Virus record (IMG/VR): IMGVR_UViG_3300031249_000004
Coordinates: 1 to 60,091 of that record
From: a virus
Length of the DNA: 60,091 nucleotides
Reading direction: 5' to 3' (one strand)
How positions within the stretch are numbered: position 1 is the stretch's first letter; each line of letters opens with the position of its first letter. Shown piece by piece: positions 16,087-60,091 of this stretch. Both the position numbers and the translations under genes were made by a program. The notes beneath the pieces are model-generated. The model was not told the DNA's origin. It saw nothing but the letters and a program-made list of their open reading frames with translations, and made no database searches.

Positions 16087-16106
16087 GGCGTAAACTCCAT
16101 CGATGG

Positions 16107-16154
16107 GCGCTTCACAGCGCGGCGGGAATGCGGCGTCTCACGACGCGGCGGTCA
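16107..16154 (-). promoter_or_regulatory. Tandem GUGA-tetraloop hairpin leader of the tail tube gene
   Basis: In the mRNA sense this 48-base element contains GCGUC-GUGA-GACGC and then GCGCU-GUGA-AGCGC, two 5-bp stems capped by the same GNRA tetraloop. It ends 20 bases before the ATG, just before the ribosome binding site. The only other copy seen, with 46 of 48 identical bases, lies before the major capsid gene (23710-23757). Confidence 0.78.
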
Positions 16155-16168
16155 GCTTCTCTGCGGGA

Positions 16169-16927
16169 TCACAGGGTGGCGTGGGGCGGCCCGGCTTCGG
16201 CGGCGAAGGCGTCGAGCGCCGCTTGCGCCGCGGCGAGATCGTCGGCGCTGGTCAGCGCCGCCAGGGCGCGCCGCCAATGATCGGCGAACCGGCCGGAGAA
16301 GGTTTTCTGGCCGATGTGGTGGAACGGCAGATCGGGATCGATCCACACTTTGCCGCCGGCCTCGCGCCAGCGGCGGCAGAAGACGAAATCCTCGGAATAA
16401 TATTGGTGATCGCGCAGCTCGAAGTCGAATAGCCAGACCAGGCGCCCGGCCCCGCGATCGTTGACCCAAAGATCGGGATAGGCGGCGATCATCCGCTCGA
16501 CCGCGGCGCGGGTGATCCGCATGAAGCCCGTGCCGATTCCCTCGACCTCCACCAGGCCGGTCGCCGGATCTTCGGCCAGCGGGCCCGGCAGTTTGCGAAA
16601 GATGTAGCGCTCAGGATCGGAGCGGCAACGGTAGACTCCACCGACGAAATCAACCTCATGCCGCAGCAACCGAGCGAACGCGCCCGGCGCGGTGGCGATG
16701 TCGGCGTCCCAGAAGACGAAGTCCGTCGCGCCGGAGCGCAGGAAGTCGGTCAACATCACGTTGCGGCAGCGCGGCAGCAGCGAGTCGAGGGCGCGGAAGT
16801 TGACCGTGCAATCCCAGCCCATGGCGATTGCTTCGTCGCGGGCGCGCATCAGGCTCAACGCTGCCGGCGCGTCGATTGCGCCGGAATAGGTCGGGACGGC
16901 GACGAAGACCGAGCGGGAGGCGCTCAT
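16169..16927 (-). CDS. Predicted GT-A type glycosyltransferase (252 aa)
   Basis: It probably transfers a sugar from a nucleotide donor. The N-terminal fold text VFVAVPTYSGAIDAPAALSL leads to LLPRCRNVMLTDFLRSGATD and then FVFWDADIATAPGAF, whose DAD fits the DxD metal-binding motif. A later His (PDLPFHHIGQKTF) matches the position of the catalytic-site region in Anp1-like enzymes. It sits within the structural operon, with an ATGA overlap to the methyltransferase gene, directly before the tail tube gene. Likely targets are virion proteins or a host surface glycan. Confidence 0.78.
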   Translation of the reverse strand: MSASRSVFVAVPTYSGAIDAPAALSLMRARDEAIAMGWDCTVNFRALDSLLPRCRNVMLTDFLRSGATDFVFWDADIATAPGAFARLLRHEVDFVGGVYRCRSDPERYIFRKLPGPLAEDPATGLVEVEGIGTGFMRITRAAVERMIAAYPDLWVNDRGAGRLVWLFDFELRDHQYYSEDFVFCRRWREAGGKVWIDPDLPFHHIGQKTFSGRFADHWRRALAALTSADDLAAAQAALDAFAAEAGPPHATL

Positions 16928-17757
16928 GCCGCCGGCCCGCCGCCGCGCGTTGCGACGATTTCCATGCAGGCGCGATAGCGCTGGCTGACAGCGTAGCCGC
17001 AGGGTTCGAAATCTTCTTGGCGCAGCAGCGCGCTCAGCCGGGCCCGGCTGAAGTTGTGATAATGCTCGAGCTCGCCCCAGTAGGGGTTCTCGCCGACTGC
17101 GTCGAGCGCCCGCCACGCCGGCGAGTCGTAAGCCGGGCATGAGACGATCAGCACGCCGCCTGGCGCCAGCAGCGAGGCCGCCAGGGTAAGCGCTCGGCCG
17201 GGAAACGGCAGGTGCTCGAGCACGTCCATCAGGCTGACGACGCGGAATTTGCGGACGCTGACGAATTTGAGAAAATCGCCGGCGTAGGCTTCGACGCCGA
17301 TCGCCTGCAGCGCCGCGACCGCGGCCGGGCGGATGTCGACGCCGACCGGCGCGAAGCCGAACTCTTCGGCGGTCAGCAGCAGCGCGCCGTCGCCGAAGCC
17401 GACGTCGAGCCACGGACCGTCCGGCGCAACGAAGCGGCAGACCTGTTCGGCGATGCGCGCGGCGATCGGCCGCCGACGTTCATAGTCCTGGCCCGGCAGT
17501 TGGAAGGCGTGGGCGCGCGACAGGACGATTGCGGCGGCGGCGGCGGTAAATGAACCGCTGGTGAAGACATGCGTGCAGACGTCGCAGCGCATCCAGTCGA
17601 TCGTCGGCGGCAGGCGCGGATCGTAGAGGGCGTGCCGCGAACAATCCGCCGAACGGAACGGTTGAAACGCCGGCGAGCCGCACAACGGGCAGGCCTCGAA
17701 GGCAATCCTCGCTTCGCTCAACAACCCTCCGGCTTTCTCTGTCAGATGCTCGGTCAC
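16924..17757 (-). CDS. SAM-dependent methyltransferase with N-terminal zinc motif (277 aa)
   Basis: An N-terminal four-cysteine motif (CPLCGS and later CDVCTHVF) is followed by a class I methyltransferase fold: PWLDVGFGDGALLLTAEEFG (SAM loop), VGVDIRP, and LMDVLEHLPFPGRALTLAAS. This layout is common in sugar or lipid modifying enzymes. The start is GTG with a GTGA overlap to the tail terminator stop. It is paired with the glycosyltransferase, which suggests that the two act on the same glycan. Confidence 0.8.
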   Translation of the reverse strand: MTEHLTEKAGGLLSEARIAFEACPLCGSPAFQPFRSADCSRHALYDPRLPPTIDWMRCDVCTHVFTSGSFTAAAAAIVLSRAHAFQLPGQDYERRRPIAARIAEQVCRFVAPDGPWLDVGFGDGALLLTAEEFGFAPVGVDIRPAAVAALQAIGVEAYAGDFLKFVSVRKFRVVSLMDVLEHLPFPGRALTLAASLLAPGGVLIVSCPAYDSPAWRALDAVGENPYWGELEHYHNFSRARLSALLRQEDFEPCGYAVSQRYRACMEIVATRGGGPAA

Positions 17758-18188
17758 GGCAGAATGATCTTGATCGGCACGCTGGCGAGACTTCGGCCGG
17801 TTTTTGCCCCTTGCACGCGCTCGACCTTGCCCGAGACCTGAAGCGAATCGACCAGGCCGCCGAGGGTGAACAGGCCGCTTGGCGTCGTCGGCTTCAACGC
17901 GGCGTCGAGAGCGTCGAGTGCGTTGTTGATGATCGTCGCCGGGATGGCGTTCTGATCCGCGCCAACGTCGTTGTAGAAGACGGCGCTGACCATCATCTGG
18001 CGCTTGGCCGGCAGGCTCGGCGAGGGCGACACATACTCGTCGCTGTCCTCGATCAGGAAGACCGCCGGCGATTGCGCCGCGGTCAGCATTTCCGGCGCGC
18101 GGTTGCGGCGCGAGGCAAGCGCAAACGTTCCGACGCCGGCGACCAGCGCCAGCAGCGCCGTCATCACCTGCTCTCGCGTCGCGGCCAT
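17754..18188 (-). CDS. Tail terminator-like protein (144 aa)
   Basis: Position (after the neck genes, before the tail tube) and size fit a tail terminator. The text MAATREQVMTALLALVAGVG and RNRAPEMLTAAQSPAVFLIE resembles this family in rhizobial prophages. ATG at 18188, overlapping the gp10-like stop by one base. Confidence 0.65.
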   Translation of the reverse strand: MAATREQVMTALLALVAGVGTFALASRRNRAPEMLTAAQSPAVFLIEDSDEYVSPSPSLPAKRQMMVSAVFYNDVGADQNAIPATIINNALDALDAALKPTTPSGLFTLGGLVDSLQVSGKVERVQGAKTGRSLASVPIKIILP

Positions 18189-18682
18189 CAGGAAAGCCCC
18201 TGCCCGGCTTCGCTGGCGACGCGATCCATTGTGGCGAGGATTTCGCCGCGGCGCGCCTCGAAGGCCGGATTGATAGCCGGATAGGCCGGGACCTTGGTCT
18301 CCGGCCGGTGAACCTGGCGGGCGAATTGCATGCCCAGCTCGCCCTCGAAGGCCATGATCCCGCCGTCGCCCGCGGCGATCATCATCTCCTTGATGGTGAA
18401 GCCGTCCTCGAGCAGATGGGCGAGGTGATGGCCGGAGCGGACGTAGCCGATGACCCGCTGGGCGTCGCGGATCGAGACGCCGGCCTTGATCGACTCGACA
18501 TAGCTGCCTGGGTTCTTGGCCCCGAGAAAGCGGATATGCGCCGCGGCGGCGGCCTTGGCGTCGGCGGCGATCTCGTCGGCGATCGGCGTCAGCGCGTCGA
18601 TCAGCTTGGCGCGAAGGGACGGCGCCACCGCGTCGAGGACGCGGGTGATGTGCGCGTCGGAGATGAACAGCGCCGGGATCAC
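18188..18682 (-). CDS. HK97 gp10-like neck / head-tail protein (164 aa)
   Basis: A helical protein (ITRVLDAVAPSLRAKLIDAL; EIAADAKAAAAAHIRFLG) with a central beta region (GYVRSGHHLAHLLEDGF) typical of HK97 gp10-type neck proteins. The start is GTG with a GTGA overlap. Order and size agree with the neck module. Confidence 0.68.
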   Translation of the reverse strand: MIPALFISDAHITRVLDAVAPSLRAKLIDALTPIADEIAADAKAAAAAHIRFLGAKNPGSYVESIKAGVSIRDAQRVIGYVRSGHHLAHLLEDGFTIKEMMIAAGDGGIMAFEGELGMQFARQVHRPETKVPAYPAINPAFEARRGEILATMDRVASEAGQGLS

Positions 18683-19083
18683 GCGACGCCGACCACGGTC
18701 AGTTCGATCGCGCCGGCGAAGGCGCGCTTGTAGGGATCGACGCGCAGCACGTTGAGCACCTCGCTGGCGTTGGGCAGCACAACCTGGTCGCCACGCTGCA
18801 TGGGCCGCGGAAATCCCGCAGCCGTCAGATCGTCGGCCATTACGATGACGATGCGGTCGCCCTGCTCGATCGCGCCCGGCTGGGCCGCGCCGAGCCCGTC
18901 GGCGGCCGGCGCCGTGCGGTCGGCGAGGATCATCCGCACGGCGGCGTTGACCGTCGCCGAGGCGTCGACCGTGAAGTTTGGCGCAAAACCGGAAACCTGG
19001 TTGATGACCACCGACACGCCGGCGCCGACCGGCGGGGGCGACAAAGCCTCGCGGTAGGCGGCGACGGCGGCGGGGTCGGCCAT
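18679..19083 (-). CDS. Head closure / stopper-like protein (134 aa)
   Basis: A small beta-rich protein (GDRIVIVMADDLTAAGFPRP; QRGDQVVLPNASEVLNVLRV) in the place of a head-tail stopper. ATG at 19083. The family is inferred from order only. Confidence 0.55.
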   Translation of the reverse strand: MADPAAVAAYREALSPPPVGAGVSVVINQVSGFAPNFTVDASATVNAAVRMILADRTAPAADGLGAAQPGAIEQGDRIVIVMADDLTAAGFPRPMQRGDQVVLPNASEVLNVLRVDPYKRAFAGAIELTVVGVA

Positions 19084-19084
19084 G

Positions 19085-19387
19085 TCAGCGAACAGGCGGA
19101 AAGAAGCGGAAGTCGGAATCGAGGTCGAAACTGTCGATCTTGGTCATCCGTTGGTCGCCGTAAGTCTCTAGGCGAAACAACGGACGAACGCGTCGAATCG
19201 GGTCGCCTGGGCTGCGATCGCAGGCCTCAGGAAGACCCTCTCCGCTAACGACGAGGCGGACGAACGGGAGGTAGGCGCCGCCGTCGCGCCCGTCCAATGA
19301 GCCGTTGACGCAAAGACCGCCGTCGATCAGCGGCCCGATGACGTCCTTGAGCGCCTCGGGATTGATATCGATGATTGCTGTTCGCAA
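19085..19387 (-). CDS. Hypothetical protein in the neck module (100 aa)
   Basis: The start is TTG at 19387 with GGAGAGG eight bases upstream; no ATG fits. Text such as IDINPEALKDVIGPLIDGG and LFRLETYGDQRMTKIDSFDL does not match a known family. It lies between the connector and stopper genes, so it may be a neck or accessory protein. Confidence 0.6.
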   Translation of the reverse strand: MRTAIIDINPEALKDVIGPLIDGGLCVNGSLDGRDGGAYLPFVRLVVSGEGLPEACDRSPGDPIRRVRPLFRLETYGDQRMTKIDSFDLDSDFRFFPPVR

Positions 19388-19402
19388 GATTCCGTCCTCT
19401 CC

Positions 19403-20065
19403 CTACCCCACCACCGGCATGCGATAGCGGTCGATCAGCGCGGTGACGTCGGAGGGCATGTCGTCGGCCCCGCCGGGGCCGGTGCCCATGACGTAGCTCG
19501 TCTCCATCACCCCGACGACGTTCTTGCTGCGGGTCAGCGGGTCGCGCTGGCGGCCGAACCAGCGCATCTTGACCAGCAAGATCGCCGCCTCTGCGACTTC
19601 GGCCGGCAGCGTGCTGAAGCCGGCCTGGTAGACGACGACGATCGGCGAATCGCGCCAGAAGCGCGGATTGCCGAAGGTATCGAGGCGGGTCAGCTCGCTG
19701 ACCTCCGGCTCGAGCAGGAAGTCGGTTCCGGCGACGAGGGTTGTCGCGACGCCGGCGATCGCCTCGACGACGCTGGTCACCGAAATCGTCGGCCAGTTCG
19801 ACAGCTGCAGCGGCGCGACGTCGCCGCGGACGATCGGCGGCCAGCCATCGCGGGCCAGCCAGATCTGGTCCTGGATCGTCTGAGGCGCGAAGATCCGGCC
19901 GCAATATTTCTGGATCGCCGCCGAGGAATTGGCGATCTGGCGGGTGAGGAACACATCGCTCGCTGTGTTGGCGATGGCGAGCTCGTCCTTGACCGTCGTC
20001 AGGTCGGTCAGCGCCGTGCTGCCCGCCGGCGTCTGGACGGTCGTGACGATGGTCGCCGGGCGCAT
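19403..20065 (-). CDS. Head-tail connector protein (220 aa)
   Basis: A gp6-like head-tail adaptor. The N-terminal helical text LTDLTTVKDELAIANTASDV and IANSSAAIQKYCGRIFAPQT is characteristic; the middle is beta-rich. The start is taken at ATG 20065, four bases past the upstream stop; an in-frame TTG at 20077 would overlap it instead. Confidence 0.75.
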   Translation of the reverse strand: MRPATIVTTVQTPAGSTALTDLTTVKDELAIANTASDVFLTRQIANSSAAIQKYCGRIFAPQTIQDQIWLARDGWPPIVRGDVAPLQLSNWPTISVTSVVEAIAGVATTLVAGTDFLLEPEVSELTRLDTFGNPRFWRDSPIVVVYQAGFSTLPAEVAEAAILLVKMRWFGRQRDPLTRSKNVVGVMETSYVMGTGPGGADDMPSDVTALIDRYRMPVVG

Positions 20066-20069
20066 GGGG

Positions 20070-20423
20070 TCAGGCAATCGGCCGGGCGATTAGCGCCAGA
20101 ATCGCCTGGGCGACCTGGTTGACCGGAACGGCGAGGGTTCCGGAGCGGACGATCAGGCAATTGACGGCGCGCCAGCGGAGGGGATCGAGGGCGCAATAGC
20201 GCGAGGCGGCGGCGGTGACGGTGATGGCGTTGCCGGCGTCGTCGTACATCTCCTCAAAATTCGCCCCGCCGTCGACGCTGACCTGAAACGTCAGGTTGGC
20301 GGTCGTCCATGGCGTCGGGATGAGGATCCCGTGCAGCCGCGCCACGCCGAGGTTGACCGCGCCCGACAGCGCCGCGCCCGCCGCGATCACCGCCTGCTGC
20401 GGCAAGAGGCCGATCGGGTCCAT
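20070..20423 (-). CDS. Hypothetical virion protein (117 aa)
   Basis: It begins MDPIGLLPQQAVIAAGAALS and has a discoidin-like beta segment (TTANLTFQVSVDGGANFEEM). Such proteins occur between the capsid and connector genes in alphaproteobacterial prophages and may decorate the head. Function not known. Confidence 0.6.
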   Translation of the reverse strand: MDPIGLLPQQAVIAAGAALSGAVNLGVARLHGILIPTPWTTANLTFQVSVDGGANFEEMYDDAGNAITVTAAASRYCALDPLRWRAVNCLIVRSGTLAVPVNQVAQAILALIARPIA

Positions 20424-20471
20424 GCGTCTCTCCTGTGGGCATCCGGCGGTTGGGGTAGAGGCTGGCGTTGA

Positions 20472-20795
20472 TCACGGCGCAGCCGTCGCGGTCGGCTGAT
20501 CGTGCGCCGCATCCGGCGCGGCGATCTCGGACTGCGCCGGCGGCGATTCGGCCGCCGCGGGCGCAGCGTCGAGAGGCGCGGACGGTTCGGCGATCGGCGC
20601 GACTTCCGGCGCGGCGATTGTCTCTTCGGGCGGCGCGACGGCGGCGATGATTTCGACGTCGTCGGCCGGGATCCACGGCGCGTCGGCGCGGGCGAGCTGC
20701 AGCGACATTGCACCGGCGGTGATCGCGACGCCGAAGACGATTCCGGTCGCGCCCGAGGCCAGGCGCACGCGATCGCCGACGTTGTAGCGGGTCAT
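20472..20795 (-). CDS. Small protein with KOW/SH3-like start and Ala/Pro-rich tail (107 aa)
   Basis: The first 50 residues (MTRYNVGDRVRLASGATGIV) look like an SH3/KOW-type beta barrel. The rest is a low-complexity Pro/Ala/Glu tail. It may be a head accessory protein; no family is assigned. Confidence 0.6.
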   Translation of the reverse strand: MTRYNVGDRVRLASGATGIVFGVAITAGAMSLQLARADAPWIPADDVEIIAAVAPPEETIAAPEVAPIAEPSAPLDAAPAAAESPPAQSEIAAPDAAHDQPTATAAP

Positions 20796-20802
20796 CGCGT
20801 CC

Positions 20803-21561
20803 TCAGCGGTTGGCGAAGATGTCGATCTTGTCGACGGTCAGCGTCGCGACGCCGGTTCCCGACGGCTTGTAGACCGCGAGATAGGGCTGGAGGATCGCGT
20901 TGGCGCCGGTGGCGGCGTATTTGATCGAGCCGACCGCGTTGACCCGGTTGCCGTCGTAGAAGAAGGCGACGTCGGTCGGGTCTTCGGCCGAAATGCGGAA
21001 GATGTGGAAGGCGGTGTCGAGGGTGATCGCGGCACCGCCGATCTGCGCCGCGGCGATCGAGGCCTGGGTCGTCCCGTCCTGCGCACGGCAGAGCAGGTTG
21101 CCGTTGGCGGTGCAGCCGAACTCGAGATATTTGACGTTGTTGTCGGGACCGTCGATCCACGCGGCCGCGAGGCCGAGGACGAGCTGGACGCCGGCGGCGC
21201 TCGGCAGCACCGAAGCGGCGGCGCGCGCCTCGAAGCTGGCGATCTTGGTGACGTCGATTGCCAGGCTATCGTTCCAGTAGAGCGCGGCGTCCTGCTTTTC
21301 CGAGGTCGCGGTCAGCGCGCAGGCGACCTGGCCGCCGGCGGCGTTGGAGACCAGCGCGACGGTCGGCGGCGCGGCGCCGACGATCTTCTTGACCCAGGGA
21401 TAGCCGGCGGCGGGCGAGCCAGCCGCGGGAATGCCCGCGCCGTGGCCGGCGCCGATGAAGTCCTCATTGAACTGCAGCGGGGCCATCGAGAAGACGGTCT
21501 CGAAGGTGGCGTCGTCGAAGAACGTCTCGACAAAGGAGCGAAACTGGGCGCGGGTGGGCAT
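20803..21561 (-). CDS. Hypothetical structural protein (252 aa), possible head decoration or spike
   Basis: After a short helical N-terminus (RAQFRSFVETFFDDATFETV) the protein is a beta-sandwich-like domain (LYWNDSLAIDVTKIASFEAR; HIFRISAEDPTDVAFFYDGN) resembling concanavalin-like lectin folds. It lies after the capsid genes and may decorate the capsid. ATG at 21561. Confidence 0.6.
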   Translation of the reverse strand: MPTRAQFRSFVETFFDDATFETVFSMAPLQFNEDFIGAGHGAGIPAAGSPAAGYPWVKKIVGAAPPTVALVSNAAGGQVACALTATSEKQDAALYWNDSLAIDVTKIASFEARAAASVLPSAAGVQLVLGLAAAWIDGPDNNVKYLEFGCTANGNLLCRAQDGTTQASIAAAQIGGAAITLDTAFHIFRISAEDPTDVAFFYDGNRVNAVGSIKYAATGANAILQPYLAVYKPSGTGVATLTVDKIDIFANR

Positions 21562-21581
21562 CGGCGGGGTCCTCGGACGGA

Positions 21582-21657
21582 GGCAATGGGCAATAGGCAG
21601 TGGGCAGTAGGCATAAGCGACGCAGGCGACCGCCTACTGCCTATTGCCTACTGCCCC
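21582..21657. repeat. Heptamer-repeat inverted array (intergenic)
   Basis: Left: GGCAATG, GGCAATA, GGCAGTG, GGCAGTA in tandem from 21582. Right (21632-21657): the reverse complements of GGCAGTA, GGCAATA, GGCAGTA. The arms of about 24 bases pair with few mismatches around a loop of some 20 bases. It lies between the genes at 20803-21561 and 21671-22156 and could form an mRNA hairpin. Confidence 0.8.
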
Positions 21658-21670
21658 GCGCTGCGCGCGA

Positions 21671-22156
21671 TCAGGCGATCGTCGTCGGCGGCGAAGCGGA
21701 CTGGATCGCGCCGTAGACGAAGAGATGAGCCGCGGTGACGTTGGCGGCGTTCGACGCGCCGGTCGACACCGCGATGTGGTTGAAGCCGTTGGCGAGGTCG
21801 AGGGCGAAGTCGGGCGTAATCTCGAAGACGACCAGCTTGTCCTTGACCGCCGCCGAGGTGGTCAGCGTGGTCGCCGCGGTCTGGGCGACCAGGGCGTCGG
21901 AGGTCGCGGTGTCGGCGTCGAGCCAGATCGGCGCGGCGTTGCTGATCGCCTTCGATCCGGTGCCGGACGAATCCTGCGCCTGGAGCAGCGACAGCAGCAC
22001 GGTGGCGGCGTTGCCTTGGTTGATCTCGACGACCACCCAGGCCTTTAGGGCGTTGCGGAGCGAAGCGTAGACGCTGGTGCGGCCGGCCGCATCGGCGGCG
22101 GCGGCGAGAAGCGTGACCGGCGGAAACTGCGCCGCCATTTGAAGCTGACGAGCCAT
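21671..22156 (-). CDS. Head decoration-like protein next to capsid gene (161 aa)
   Basis: The gene directly after the capsid gene. It starts MARQLQMAAQFPPVTLLAAA with GGAG seven bases upstream. The body alternates short strands (ALKAWVVVEINQGNAATVLL; VVFEITPDFALDLANGFNHI), suggesting a small beta protein. Likely a capsid-associated protein by position. Confidence 0.65.
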   Translation of the reverse strand: MARQLQMAAQFPPVTLLAAAADAAGRTSVYASLRNALKAWVVVEINQGNAATVLLSLLQAQDSSGTGSKAISNAAPIWLDADTATSDALVAQTAATTLTTSAAVKDKLVVFEITPDFALDLANGFNHIAVSTGASNAANVTAAHLFVYGAIQSASPPTTIA

Positions 22157-22205
22157 GGAAATTCTCCGGAAGAGCGTGAAAGACAAATAGGGCTTGGCTT
22201 GCGCC

Positions 22206-22257
22206 TCCCCTCATCCGGCCGCTGCGCGGCCACCTTCCCCCGCGTGCGGGGGAAGGG
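22206..22257. repeat. Rhizobiales-type dispersed palindrome after the capsid gene
   Basis: Two hairpins follow each other: GGCCGC-TGC-GCGGCC at 217-231 of this kilobase, and an 11-bp stem CCTTCCCCCGC / GCGGGGGAAGG at 233-256. The arrangement CCTCATCCGG...CACCTTC followed by a GC-rich stem is that of short palindromes scattered through Rhizobiales genomes. It lies between the capsid stop and the next gene and may act as an mRNA 3' stabiliser or terminator. Confidence 0.75.
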
Positions 22258-22270
22258 ATGCGCGATGCGA

Positions 22271-23689
22271 TTAGCGGGTGGCGAGGGCGACGAACGGCGA
22301 CAGGGTGTTCGTGCCCTTGAACGGCGTGATCGCCTTGGTCCACATCGGCTTGCCGTCGACGCGGTAGGTGATGCGGAACACCATTTCGTCGGTGTTGAAG
22401 GCGACGTGCATCGACGTTGCCGCTTGGACGCCGTTCTTGTCGACCACCGTGTATTGGCTCAAATCGACCAGATTGATGTCGCCGAGCGTGCCGAGCGTCG
22501 AGCAATATTCGGCGTTGATGATCGGGCGCCCCTTCAGCGTCGCGTAGGGGGCGGCCGACAGGCCACCGGGCGGCATGTAGACCAGTTCGCCTGCCGTCCC
22601 GACCGGGCCGTTGAGCGCCTGGAGCTGCGGCTCGACGTCCTGGTTGATCAGCCAGACCGCGCTCTTGCGGCTGCGCGCCCAGCAACGGGCGAACATGTTA
22701 TCGATGTTTTCCTTGACGACGGTCTTGGTCGCCTGGCCGTTCTGCTTGGCGACGCTGAGCAGCGCCGGACTGTTGAGGACGCCGAGCGGCATGCCCGCGC
22801 CGGTGCCCTCCCAGATGCCGTCCTCGGTCATGAACATGATTTCTTCCGAGAACGCCTGAACGCCGATGGCGTTGAGGGCGGTCGAATCCTGCATCATTTC
22901 GCTGGTGACGTACCACAGCGACATCAGCTTCTTGAGGTCGAACTCGATCAGCCGGAATTTCGGCTTGCTCGGCGCCGGCGCGATGCCTTCGGCCAGCCAG
23001 TAGGACTGCACGCCGCCCCAGCGCGAGCCGGTGACGCGGCTGGTTTCGTCGACGCCGGGAATCTTGAGGCCGTTGGAATTGGCGCTGATCGGGATCTTAT
23101 TCACCCGGCTCAGAATCTCGCCCATGTCGTGGGCCAGCATGAAGATCGCCGCGGCGAAGTCGACTTGAACGAGGAAGCCGCCGCCGGTCGGATCCATTTC
23201 GGCCGAGCCGGTCGGACCGGCGCGGTTTACCTCGGTTGGCGCCCGCACCAGGCGAGAATCGGTGTTCGAGCCGTGGCTAGCGTAATGGCTGGCGATGGCG
23301 CACAGCTGCTCGCCGAGCGTGGCGAACTGGCGCGAGCGATCGATGCTGACGCCGAGGCCCTGGCGGGCGGCGCGCAGATAGTCGCCGAACGCCTCCGGCT
23401 TGTGCGGATCGAGCCGCGCGCCGAGCTGGGCGCGATAGTGCAGAATGCCGCCGGCCTCATCGACCGAGGTCGACTCGGGCTGCTCGGCCGGCGCGCCGCG
23501 CAGCAGCGCCGGACGCGCCAGAGAGGCGGAACGCTTCTGGGCGGATTCGGCGCGGGCGATCAGCGCCTCGCATTCGACGATTTCGCGCTCCTTGGCCTCG
23601 AAGGCCTTGGCGTCAGCGACAATCGCGTCGCTGTTGAGTTCGTCGGTCAGCGCGCCGAGTTTACGGCGCAGCTCAGCGAGCTTCTCCAT
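22271..23689 (-). CDS. Major capsid protein, HK97 family (472 aa)
   Basis: The main head subunit. Residues 1-60 form a coiled coil (LAELRRKLGALTDELNSDAI) like the HK97 delta domain, presumably removed by the protease encoded upstream. The main fold is recognised from GGGFLVQVDFAAAIFMLAHD, DLKKLMSLWYVTSEMMQDS, FMTEDGIWEGTGAGMPLGVL and MHVAFNTDEMVFRITYRVDG. The ATG at 23689 has TTGGAG upstream, preceded by the tandem-hairpin leader at 23710-23757. Confidence 0.95.
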   Translation of the reverse strand: MEKLAELRRKLGALTDELNSDAIVADAKAFEAKEREIVECEALIARAESAQKRSASLARPALLRGAPAEQPESTSVDEAGGILHYRAQLGARLDPHKPEAFGDYLRAARQGLGVSIDRSRQFATLGEQLCAIASHYASHGSNTDSRLVRAPTEVNRAGPTGSAEMDPTGGGFLVQVDFAAAIFMLAHDMGEILSRVNKIPISANSNGLKIPGVDETSRVTGSRWGGVQSYWLAEGIAPAPSKPKFRLIEFDLKKLMSLWYVTSEMMQDSTALNAIGVQAFSEEIMFMTEDGIWEGTGAGMPLGVLNSPALLSVAKQNGQATKTVVKENIDNMFARCWARSRKSAVWLINQDVEPQLQALNGPVGTAGELVYMPPGGLSAAPYATLKGRPIINAEYCSTLGTLGDINLVDLSQYTVVDKNGVQAATSMHVAFNTDEMVFRITYRVDGKPMWTKAITPFKGTNTLSPFVALATR

Positions 23690-23709
23690 AGGTAGGCTCC
23701 AACATTGCA

Positions 23710-23757
23710 GCGCTTCACAGCGCGGCGGGGATGCGGCGTCTCACGACGCTGCGGTCA
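23710..23757 (-). promoter_or_regulatory. Tandem GUGA-tetraloop hairpin leader of the capsid gene
   Basis: This element is 46 of 48 bases identical to 16107-16154. In the mRNA sense it contains GCGUC-GUGA-GACGC then GCGCU-GUGA-AGCGC. It ends 20 bases before the capsid ATG, just upstream of GGAG. One of the two differences lies in the spacer between the hairpins; the other lies at an unpaired position beside the first stem, so both stems are conserved. Confidence 0.78.
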
Positions 23758-59028: not shown

Positions 59029-59841
59029 TCAGGTGGCCGCCGCCTCGAGCGCGGCGATCGTCTTCGGGCCGGCGATGCCGTCGACGAACAGCCCGTGGGC
59101 GCCTTGGAAGCGCGCCACGGCCCGCCGCGTCGCCGGGCCATTATCGCCGTCGATGACGAGAGCTGGCGCAGCGCCAAACTTGTTGAGCAGCCCCTGCGTC
59201 CAGGCAATCGAGCCGACCGGCGGCGGCGATCCCGGCTGATAGATCGGCTTCGCCTGCGCGGCGATCGCCGGCGCCGGAACAAGCTTGCCAATCGTGTTCA
59301 TGAATTCGGTGATCGCCGCGAGTTCGGCGTCGCGATATTTCTGCGCCCAGTTCTCGACCGGACACTGGAAGTGACCGTCCGTCCGGCAATCCGAGTGAGG
59401 AACGATCGTCGCCGGGGTCGCTCTGAGGTTCATCTTCACCAGGCAGCAGGCAATAGCCCAGTGCTGGTTGTCGAGAACGTCTTTGCCCGGCCCTTGCGAG
59501 AAATCGTCGGTGTTGCGGTTGATCGACCCTTCGAAACCGAGAGAATCGTAATTCTCGCATGAGCAATGCGTCCCGCGCGCGCCAAGCGCGGAGAAGCCGA
59601 AGATCACATCGTGCATCGCAAAGCCGTGCGGGCCGTGGGCCCAACGAAGCTTCTGCTCATAGTAAGACTGCGTGTTGACGATGTAGTTCCGCTCGTTCAT
59701 CGCCAACGCCTGCGCCAGCGTCGGAACGCCCGTCGAGTGGACGACGATCTTCACGGCGTCGGGGAAGATCGGCGTCTCGGCGACATGCGCCGCCCACTGC
59801 TCGCGCGTGTAGGCGCGGCCATCGAAACCAGCCCAGGTCAT
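59029..59841 (-). CDS. Endolysin: N-acetylmuramoyl-L-alanine amidase with peptidoglycan-binding domain (270 aa)
   Basis: Cuts the amide between MurNAc and peptide. Amidase_2 domain: KIVVHSTGVP gives the first zinc His; VPHSDCRTDGHFQCP provides a later His and Cys. The C-terminal PG_binding_1 domain is WTQGLLNKFGAAPALVIDGD followed by NGPATRRAVARFQGAHG. No signal peptide, so release needs a holin. ATG 59841 (TGA overlap with the 44-residue gene). Confidence 0.93.
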   Translation of the reverse strand: MTWAGFDGRAYTREQWAAHVAETPIFPDAVKIVVHSTGVPTLAQALAMNERNYIVNTQSYYEQKLRWAHGPHGFAMHDVIFGFSALGARGTHCSCENYDSLGFEGSINRNTDDFSQGPGKDVLDNQHWAIACCLVKMNLRATPATIVPHSDCRTDGHFQCPVENWAQKYRDAELAAITEFMNTIGKLVPAPAIAAQAKPIYQPGSPPPVGSIAWTQGLLNKFGAAPALVIDGDNGPATRRAVARFQGAHGLFVDGIAGPKTIAALEAAAT

Positions 59842-59972
59842 CGAAGAATCCTCATCAGTTCGAGCGCAGCGACGAAGGCGGCCGCGGCGAGCGCCGCATC
59901 GACCGGGTGAGCCAGGGCGGCGACGGCGCACAGCGCGACCAGCGCCAGCTCGAGGCGGCGAAAGATCGACAT
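59838..59972 (-). CDS. Small hydrophobic protein (44 aa), right-hand copy
   Basis: Same gene as 17-151, repeated in the terminal overlap, with two synonymous differences (Ile and Pro codons). See that entry. Confidence 0.7.
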   Translation of the reverse strand: MSIFRRLELALVALCAVAALAHPVDAALAAAAFVAALELMRILR

Positions 59973-60014
59973 GCGGCGCTCCCGCTAGGGATTGGCGGCG
60001 ATGCTGGCGGAGCG

Positions 60015-60091
60015 CTACGAACGCGCCCTCGCCGGCCTTCCGTTTGGCCAGAAATGGCGCGGCGCGCAGCCTTCGCAGAGCGCCGCCTTGC
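60015..60091 (-). CDS. Small zinc-ribbon-like protein, 3' part only (complete at 194-478)
   Basis: Cut by the window edge; identical to bases 194-270. Confidence 0.65.
   Translation of the reverse strand, partial: KAALCEGCAPRHFWPNGRPARARS

Follow-up and report, generated by a model that had tools for sequence, protein, structure and literature searches.

A conserved, covarying leader RNA upstream of capsid, tail-tube and other virion genes in a 60-kb phage genome and in dissimilar phages

The window analysed here is the complete 60,091-nt stretch of IMG/VR virus record IMGVR_UViG_3300031249_000004. Positions 1–270 and 59822–60091 form a direct repeat of 270 bp at both ends with 99% identity, and this repeat makes it probable that the phage genome, of ~59.8 kb, is circular or terminally redundant. 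The genes for the major capsid protein and the tail-tube protein are both encoded on the minus strand (Table 1). The predicted fold of the tail-tube protein (pLDDT 84) exhibits its best match to solved tail tube proteins (E 2.5e-12). Each gene is preceded by one copy of a 48-bp repeat (16107–16154 and 23710–23757, both minus strand, 46/48 identical) that stops 20 nt short of the downstream ATG, as a sequence-only reading of the window had described. The same reading placed the repeat upstream of these two genes only, which agrees with the covariance model: it finds just two places in the window, and no third copy above background is present in the 60-kb genome (next match 14 bits).

Both copies fold into a double hairpin, for which the expected number of occurrences in shuffled windows is 0. 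Two neighbouring 5-bp stems closed by GUGA loops had been proposed; the double hairpin itself stands, but the first hairpin is not limited to 5 bp, since a C.C or A.C mismatch has further pairing beneath it. In the tube copy, the second hairpin is without a lower stem. The four hairpins of this type in the window, labelled B in Table 1, score 23.3–30.6 bits with model R1, each in the coding orientation. The copies differ at two places: at the mismatch nucleotide of the first hairpin, which gives C.C before the tube gene and A.C before the capsid gene, and in the UUCCC/AUCCC tract; both are places where the leader family described below varies. The capsid copy alone has an extra upstream hairpin, labelled A, which is absent from the tube copy. 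No promoter-like (sigma-70-like) or terminator-like site was found at either window leader, and an intrinsic terminator, a G+C-rich stem with a U run, was rejected as a candidate on the latter ground.

Table 1. Positions of the leader elements and of the genes that they precede in the window
Feature	Position	Strand	Evidence
Capsid leader hairpin A: stem ACC/GGU, loop CUUGGGCAA	23757..23771	-	R2 48.6 bits, E 1e-10; loop and covarying stem conserved in relatives
Capsid leader hairpin B1: GC, A.C mismatch, GCGUC, GUGA loop	23733..23752	-	R1 28.8 bits
Capsid leader AUCCCC tract (family UUCCC)	23727..23732	-	Alignment, covariance model
Capsid leader hairpin B2: GC, C.U mismatch, GCGCU, GUGA loop	23707..23726	-	R1 26.8 bits
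Capsid gene Shine-Dalgarno UGGAG	23697..23701	-	Sequence
Major capsid protein gene, 472 aa	22271..23689	-	PF05065 E 3e-39; phrog_10
Tail-tube leader hairpin B1: GC, C.C mismatch, GCGUC, GUGA loop	16130..16149	-	R1 30.6 bits
Tail-tube leader UUCCC tract	16124..16128	-	Alignment, covariance model
Tail-tube leader hairpin B2: GCGCU, GUGA loop, no lower stem	16107..16120	-	R1 23.3 bits
Tail-tube gene Shine-Dalgarno GAUGGAG	16095..16101	-	Sequence; GAU enriched in leader family
Tail-tube protein gene, 253 aa	15325..16086	-	phrog_8234; predicted fold

The anatomy of the leader family (models R1 and R2) was derived from pattern scans of viral contigs and from alignments. From its 5' end, the leader is composed of hairpin A (a stem of 3–5 bp with the loop CYUNGGCAA), a linker of 3–4 nt and hairpin B, which has 2–3 bp, one mismatch, 4–5 bp and a loop of GNGA or GNGA plus one nucleotide. 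UUCCC follows hairpin B, and then come 3–4 nt, GAUGGAG, 5–9 nt and the start codon. The leader is oriented with the coding strand, and the length of the A–B linker is variable. The first mismatch in hairpin B falls at pair 5 (37 leaders) or pair 6 (37 leaders) in 74 of 75, and is C.C in 50 of these 75 hairpins and A.C in 16; the commonest loops are GUGA and GCGA. The spacing from hairpin B to GGAG is 11–13 nt in 57/75 leaders, and about half of the 75 have a hairpin A with the loop CYUNGGCAA. In an unselected set, GAU precedes GGAG in 13/15 leaders versus 21/464 other genes with GGAG. The sequence-only reading had recognised the tandem GUGA hairpins and had missed hairpin A, the conserved mismatch and the UUCCC–GAUGGAG tail.

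Relatives of the window capsid were picked by protein similarity only and provided 61 distinct capsid leaders. Among these, GUGA hairpins were observed 15 times versus 0.24 expected, and the complementary loop UCAC once. Equivalent hairpins are found upstream of the capsid gene with changed stems (ACGUC/GACGU, ACCCC/GGGGU, GCGCC/GGCGC). The earlier proposal had depended on conservation in related phages, and the hairpins do recur there with compensatory changes upstream of capsid and tube genes. In most relatives a single hairpin A is combined with a single hairpin B, and the second GUGA hairpin of the tandem is a local elaboration. The viral scan provided no relatives through the tail-tube protein alone; within the capsid-relative set, the tail-tube genes of two other phages (L075 and L023) also have the leader, and the pairing of capsid and tube leaders thus recurs among relatives. 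No such hairpins lie upstream of the tube gene in L012, the nearest relative at 87% capsid identity, so the tube copy of the window was probably gained recently. The capsid leaders of L026, L068, L072 and L074 contain the CUUGGGCAA hairpin with no evident GNGA hairpin, and hairpin A may for this reason be the older or more widespread part of the leader.

The stems covary strongly. In alignment A2, the capsid-relative set, 88.7% of cells pair and the covariation score is 0.461, versus 0.179 when shuffled and at most 0.117 when slid, in an alignment that was fitted to the structure. Alignment A3, with 27 full leaders, scores 0.567 versus 0.163 when shuffled, part of stem B being fixed by the search patterns in many of its sequences. 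Kinship among the sequences inflates such counts. Hairpin A is 98% paired in A3, with compensatory changes in all four pairs; its arms were unconstrained in the search, except for the letters adjoining the loop in one pattern.

A blind scan was carried out with the pattern TTGGGCAA-N(25-55)-GATGGAGCC, ignoring hairpin B and gene identity, and its sample consists of 66 distinct sites in loci L398–L473, among the matches listed. Fifty of the 66 sites examined combine an A stem of 3 bp or more with a start codon no further than 12 nt away, again among the matches listed. Hairpin B, by a strict rule, is present in 42 of these 50 versus 3.5% in shuffled spacers, and all 42 exhibit the mismatch at pair 5 or 6; most of the remaining eight resemble variants of B, and the other 16 sites, which do not have the A stem and start codon together, provided no hairpin B (0/16), all of these counts being among the matches listed.

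By BLASTP, the proteins encoded downstream of the leader group into 28 clusters without the blind-test sites and at least 35 with them. The genes that can be classified are virion genes, and several clusters have no known function. The capsids fall into eight clusters without BLASTP links, with assignments to phrog_10 together with 617, 283, 334, 1328, 1005, 212, 371 and 29. Major tail proteins are represented by phrog_158, 807/1407 and 13196, and by phrog_290, a tail protein that PHROGs labels "minor", whereas annotated relatives call it major or tube. Further families are the window tube protein (8234), a tail sheath (165) and a scaffold (3927). The proposed association with the most abundant virion proteins thus extends to other capsid families, tail tubes, a sheath and scaffolds. 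A tail assembly chaperone (313) and a head protease (80) also carry the leader and are not among the most abundant proteins; a requirement for many copies of the product is what best describes the gene set.

Three families without an assigned function, phrog_13692, phrog_8917 and phrog_30644, are preceded by the leader, and because of this association they may be abundant virion proteins. In one locus (L311, G012:C1:8991-10900), a further leader lies downstream of the capsid gene and upstream of a gene for a 170-aa phrog_28483 protein. The window ORF at 21671–22186, just after the capsid gene, also matches phrog_28483, which is perhaps a head decoration protein.

Phage records mostly contain 1–4 strong leader sites, and bacterial chromosomes contain almost none; the few bacterial matches are in part due to chance. 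At E 1e-5, 4/385 and 2/398 sampled bacterial genomes exhibited a match, at least one by chance. A Pseudolabrys genome and a Rhizobiales genome have one site each, upstream of a capsid-like and a tube-like gene, and one good chromosomal match (L329, G394:C1:256407-256454) precedes a short ORF of 43 aa. Among cultured phages, Pseudomonas phage PAJU2 (L334, NC_011373, 96–283) has four GNRA hairpins within ~190 nt upstream of its major tail protein gene, with the loops GAGA, GGGA, GGGA and GUGA, each mismatched at pair 5 or 6 as read by eye; the last hairpin is followed by AUAUCC and UGGAG. Model R1 scores this leader weakly (16.6 bits, E 0.0014), and its membership is therefore based on the shared plan. 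The PAJU2 hairpins are near-identical in phage IME307 and absent from D3. In view of this Pseudomonas phage, restriction to alphaproteobacterial phages is not supported, and an origin in alphaproteobacteria only was dropped on the same evidence. PAJU2 is also a workable laboratory system.

Upstream of a tail gene, EBPR siphovirus 3 has hairpin A. The full leader is absent at the homologous genes of PaMx28, Xanthomonas YB23, Variovorax VBv52, Limnohabitans DC33, Jess A, phiV10, Azospirillum Cd, CBW1004C-Prop1, Pam5, D3 and Strzyga, and many homologous capsid and tube genes in other phages are likewise without it. BLASTN of a leader against named phages provided no match, which is attributed to the shortness of the element. 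In L126–L171 (the MGCPAN group), L307 and L315, an intrinsic-terminator-like hairpin with a T run lies directly 5' of the leader, too close to it for a separate promoter.

The sequence-only reading knew of no described motif of this form, and none was identified here. At the curated gathering score, Rfam 15 gave no match in the window and nothing besides a tRNA in 11 relatives, and the strongest relative leader had none at E≤2. No description was found in the literature searched, and a match outside Rfam may exist among the 224 candidate RNAs of a 2017 survey. The leader family, its anatomy and its breadth over virion genes appear to be new; structured leader RNAs of phage genes, as a kind, are already known. 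A CsrA/Rsm hairpin, in which GGA is exposed in the loop, was set aside, the commonest loops GUGA and GCGA being without GGA. A resemblance of GUCGUGAGA to a segment of 16S rRNA is not claimed, because the stem letters vary within the family.

The conserved, covarying RNA structure and its association with virion genes are established, and the function that we infer is that of a cis-acting structured 5' leader RNA that would raise the translation and/or stability of virion mRNAs and be read by a factor (probability roughly 0.55). The covariation, strand bias and Shine-Dalgarno coupling argue for an RNA that acts on its own mRNA, so the leader would act after transcription, on the mRNA carrying it. 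The folded RNA would sit just upstream of the ribosome landing site and increase initiation, and/or shield this part of the polycistronic mRNA at its 5' end, with the outcome that capsid and tube proteins would be made in excess over the products of neighbouring genes. Raised initiation and/or mRNA stabilisation is favoured because the gene set comprises proteins needed in many copies, and recognition by a factor is implied by the conservation of the loops and the mismatch. A reader from the host machinery (ribosome, RNA-binding protein or nuclease) would be more likely than a phage protein, since no phage protein family is present in more than 9/19 carrier phages in a search of limited sensitivity, with which small diverged phage proteins may be compatible. 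Counted against an expression-raising leader are the many homologous genes without it and the chaperone and protease genes that carry it.

The same leader anatomy fits a role in repression or timing. The GNGA hairpin could be bound by a protein of the phage or the host that represses, or later releases, the Shine-Dalgarno sequence, in the manner of the MS2 coat protein at its operator; a conserved tetraloop and an internal mismatch at a fixed distance are typical of protein-recognised hairpins, and UUCC might pair weakly with GGAG, which would hinder initiation. We regard such an operator as unlikely on balance: the limited-sensitivity search found no phage protein in more than nine of the 19 carriers, and self-repression by one common product is improbable because the downstream products are unrelated. 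It is more doubtful still that hairpin B acts in antitermination like lambda/P22 boxB, or else tags an RNA-processing cut downstream of a terminator between two genes, either of which would carry transcription or stable mRNA on into the virion gene. The GNRA-type loop on a ~5-bp stem and the pentaloop variants resemble boxB by analogy, and terminator-like sites lie just upstream of 12/73 leaders versus 8/419 control genes, but the element is downstream of those terminators at a fixed distance from the Shine-Dalgarno sequence, and most leaders, including both window copies, are without a terminator-like site.

A DNA-level element, that is, a late promoter, an operator or a recombination site that in the window would be a recently copied repeat, is very improbable. 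The arms are palindromic and the tube copy appears to be a recent duplicate of the capsid copy, the tube gene of L012 being without one; the strand-specific GNGA loops, covarying stems, variable A–B linker, Shine-Dalgarno coupling and recurrence in dissimilar phages all speak against it, as does the lack of a sigma-70-like site at the window copies. With regard to the leader as an RNA that raises expression, a broader proposal is offered tentatively: a single RNA "virion-gene tag", shared through exchange or convergence among phages in which no universally shared gene is detectable, might mark the genes of highest output and be read by a host component, which would recognise the GNGA loop, the C.C/A.C mismatch and the loop CYUNGGCAA, as a common phage expression signal that possibly imitates a host RNA.

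The basic question concerned is how hundreds of capsid and tube subunits yet few portal and terminase molecules are made from one late gene block, which becomes open to direct testing now that an RNA can be recognised upstream of genes for abundant virion proteins across many dissimilar phages. In uncharacterised phages, the leader can also serve to annotate capsid and tail-tube genes.

Several known systems share features with the leader. The boxB hairpin of the lambda and P22 nut sites has a stem of ~5 bp and a GNRA-fold loop in four- and five-nucleotide forms, and serves antitermination of early operons through the N protein; the P22 boxB stem presumably equals that of the second window hairpin, GCGCU/AGCGC. 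Hairpin B likewise has a GNRA-fold loop on a ~5-bp stem, with GNGA tetraloops and loops one nucleotide longer, but boxB is not known to have an internal mismatch, a hairpin A or Shine-Dalgarno coupling, whereas the leader lies at a fixed distance from the Shine-Dalgarno sequence of virion genes and has no early-operon placement. No phage-encoded N-like partner common to the carriers was found in the shared-protein search, which has limited sensitivity. In the MS2 coat-protein operator, the start codon is part of the hairpin, and the single gene served is repressed by the coat protein. Hairpin B is similar in its conserved loop, in the constant number of pairs that separate this loop from an unpaired nucleotide and in its virion-related initiation region; it differs in ending mostly 11–13 nt before GGAG, and in the window 20 nt before the ATG, and in preceding many unrelated genes. 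Comparative genomics has also provided the Mu-gpT downstream element and other phage-associated candidate structured RNAs. The Mu-gpT element is a conserved RNA structure at a phage structural gene, as is the leader, which differs in being located upstream of its gene.

The T7 gene 10 enhancer is a single-phage element that is not known to have the A and B hairpins. Its leader, like the present one, lies directly upstream of the Shine-Dalgarno sequence of a major capsid gene, and the present leader differs as a recurrent structured RNA upstream of many kinds of virion gene. The ribosome binding site of T7 gene 10 (capsid) has an upstream translational enhancer, which is reported not to be needed in Agrobacterium fabrum (PMC8748333). 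The T7 gene 10 leader supports very strong translation and is a functional precedent for capsid genes, and the present leader could supply expression signals for bacteria in which the T7 enhancer adds little.
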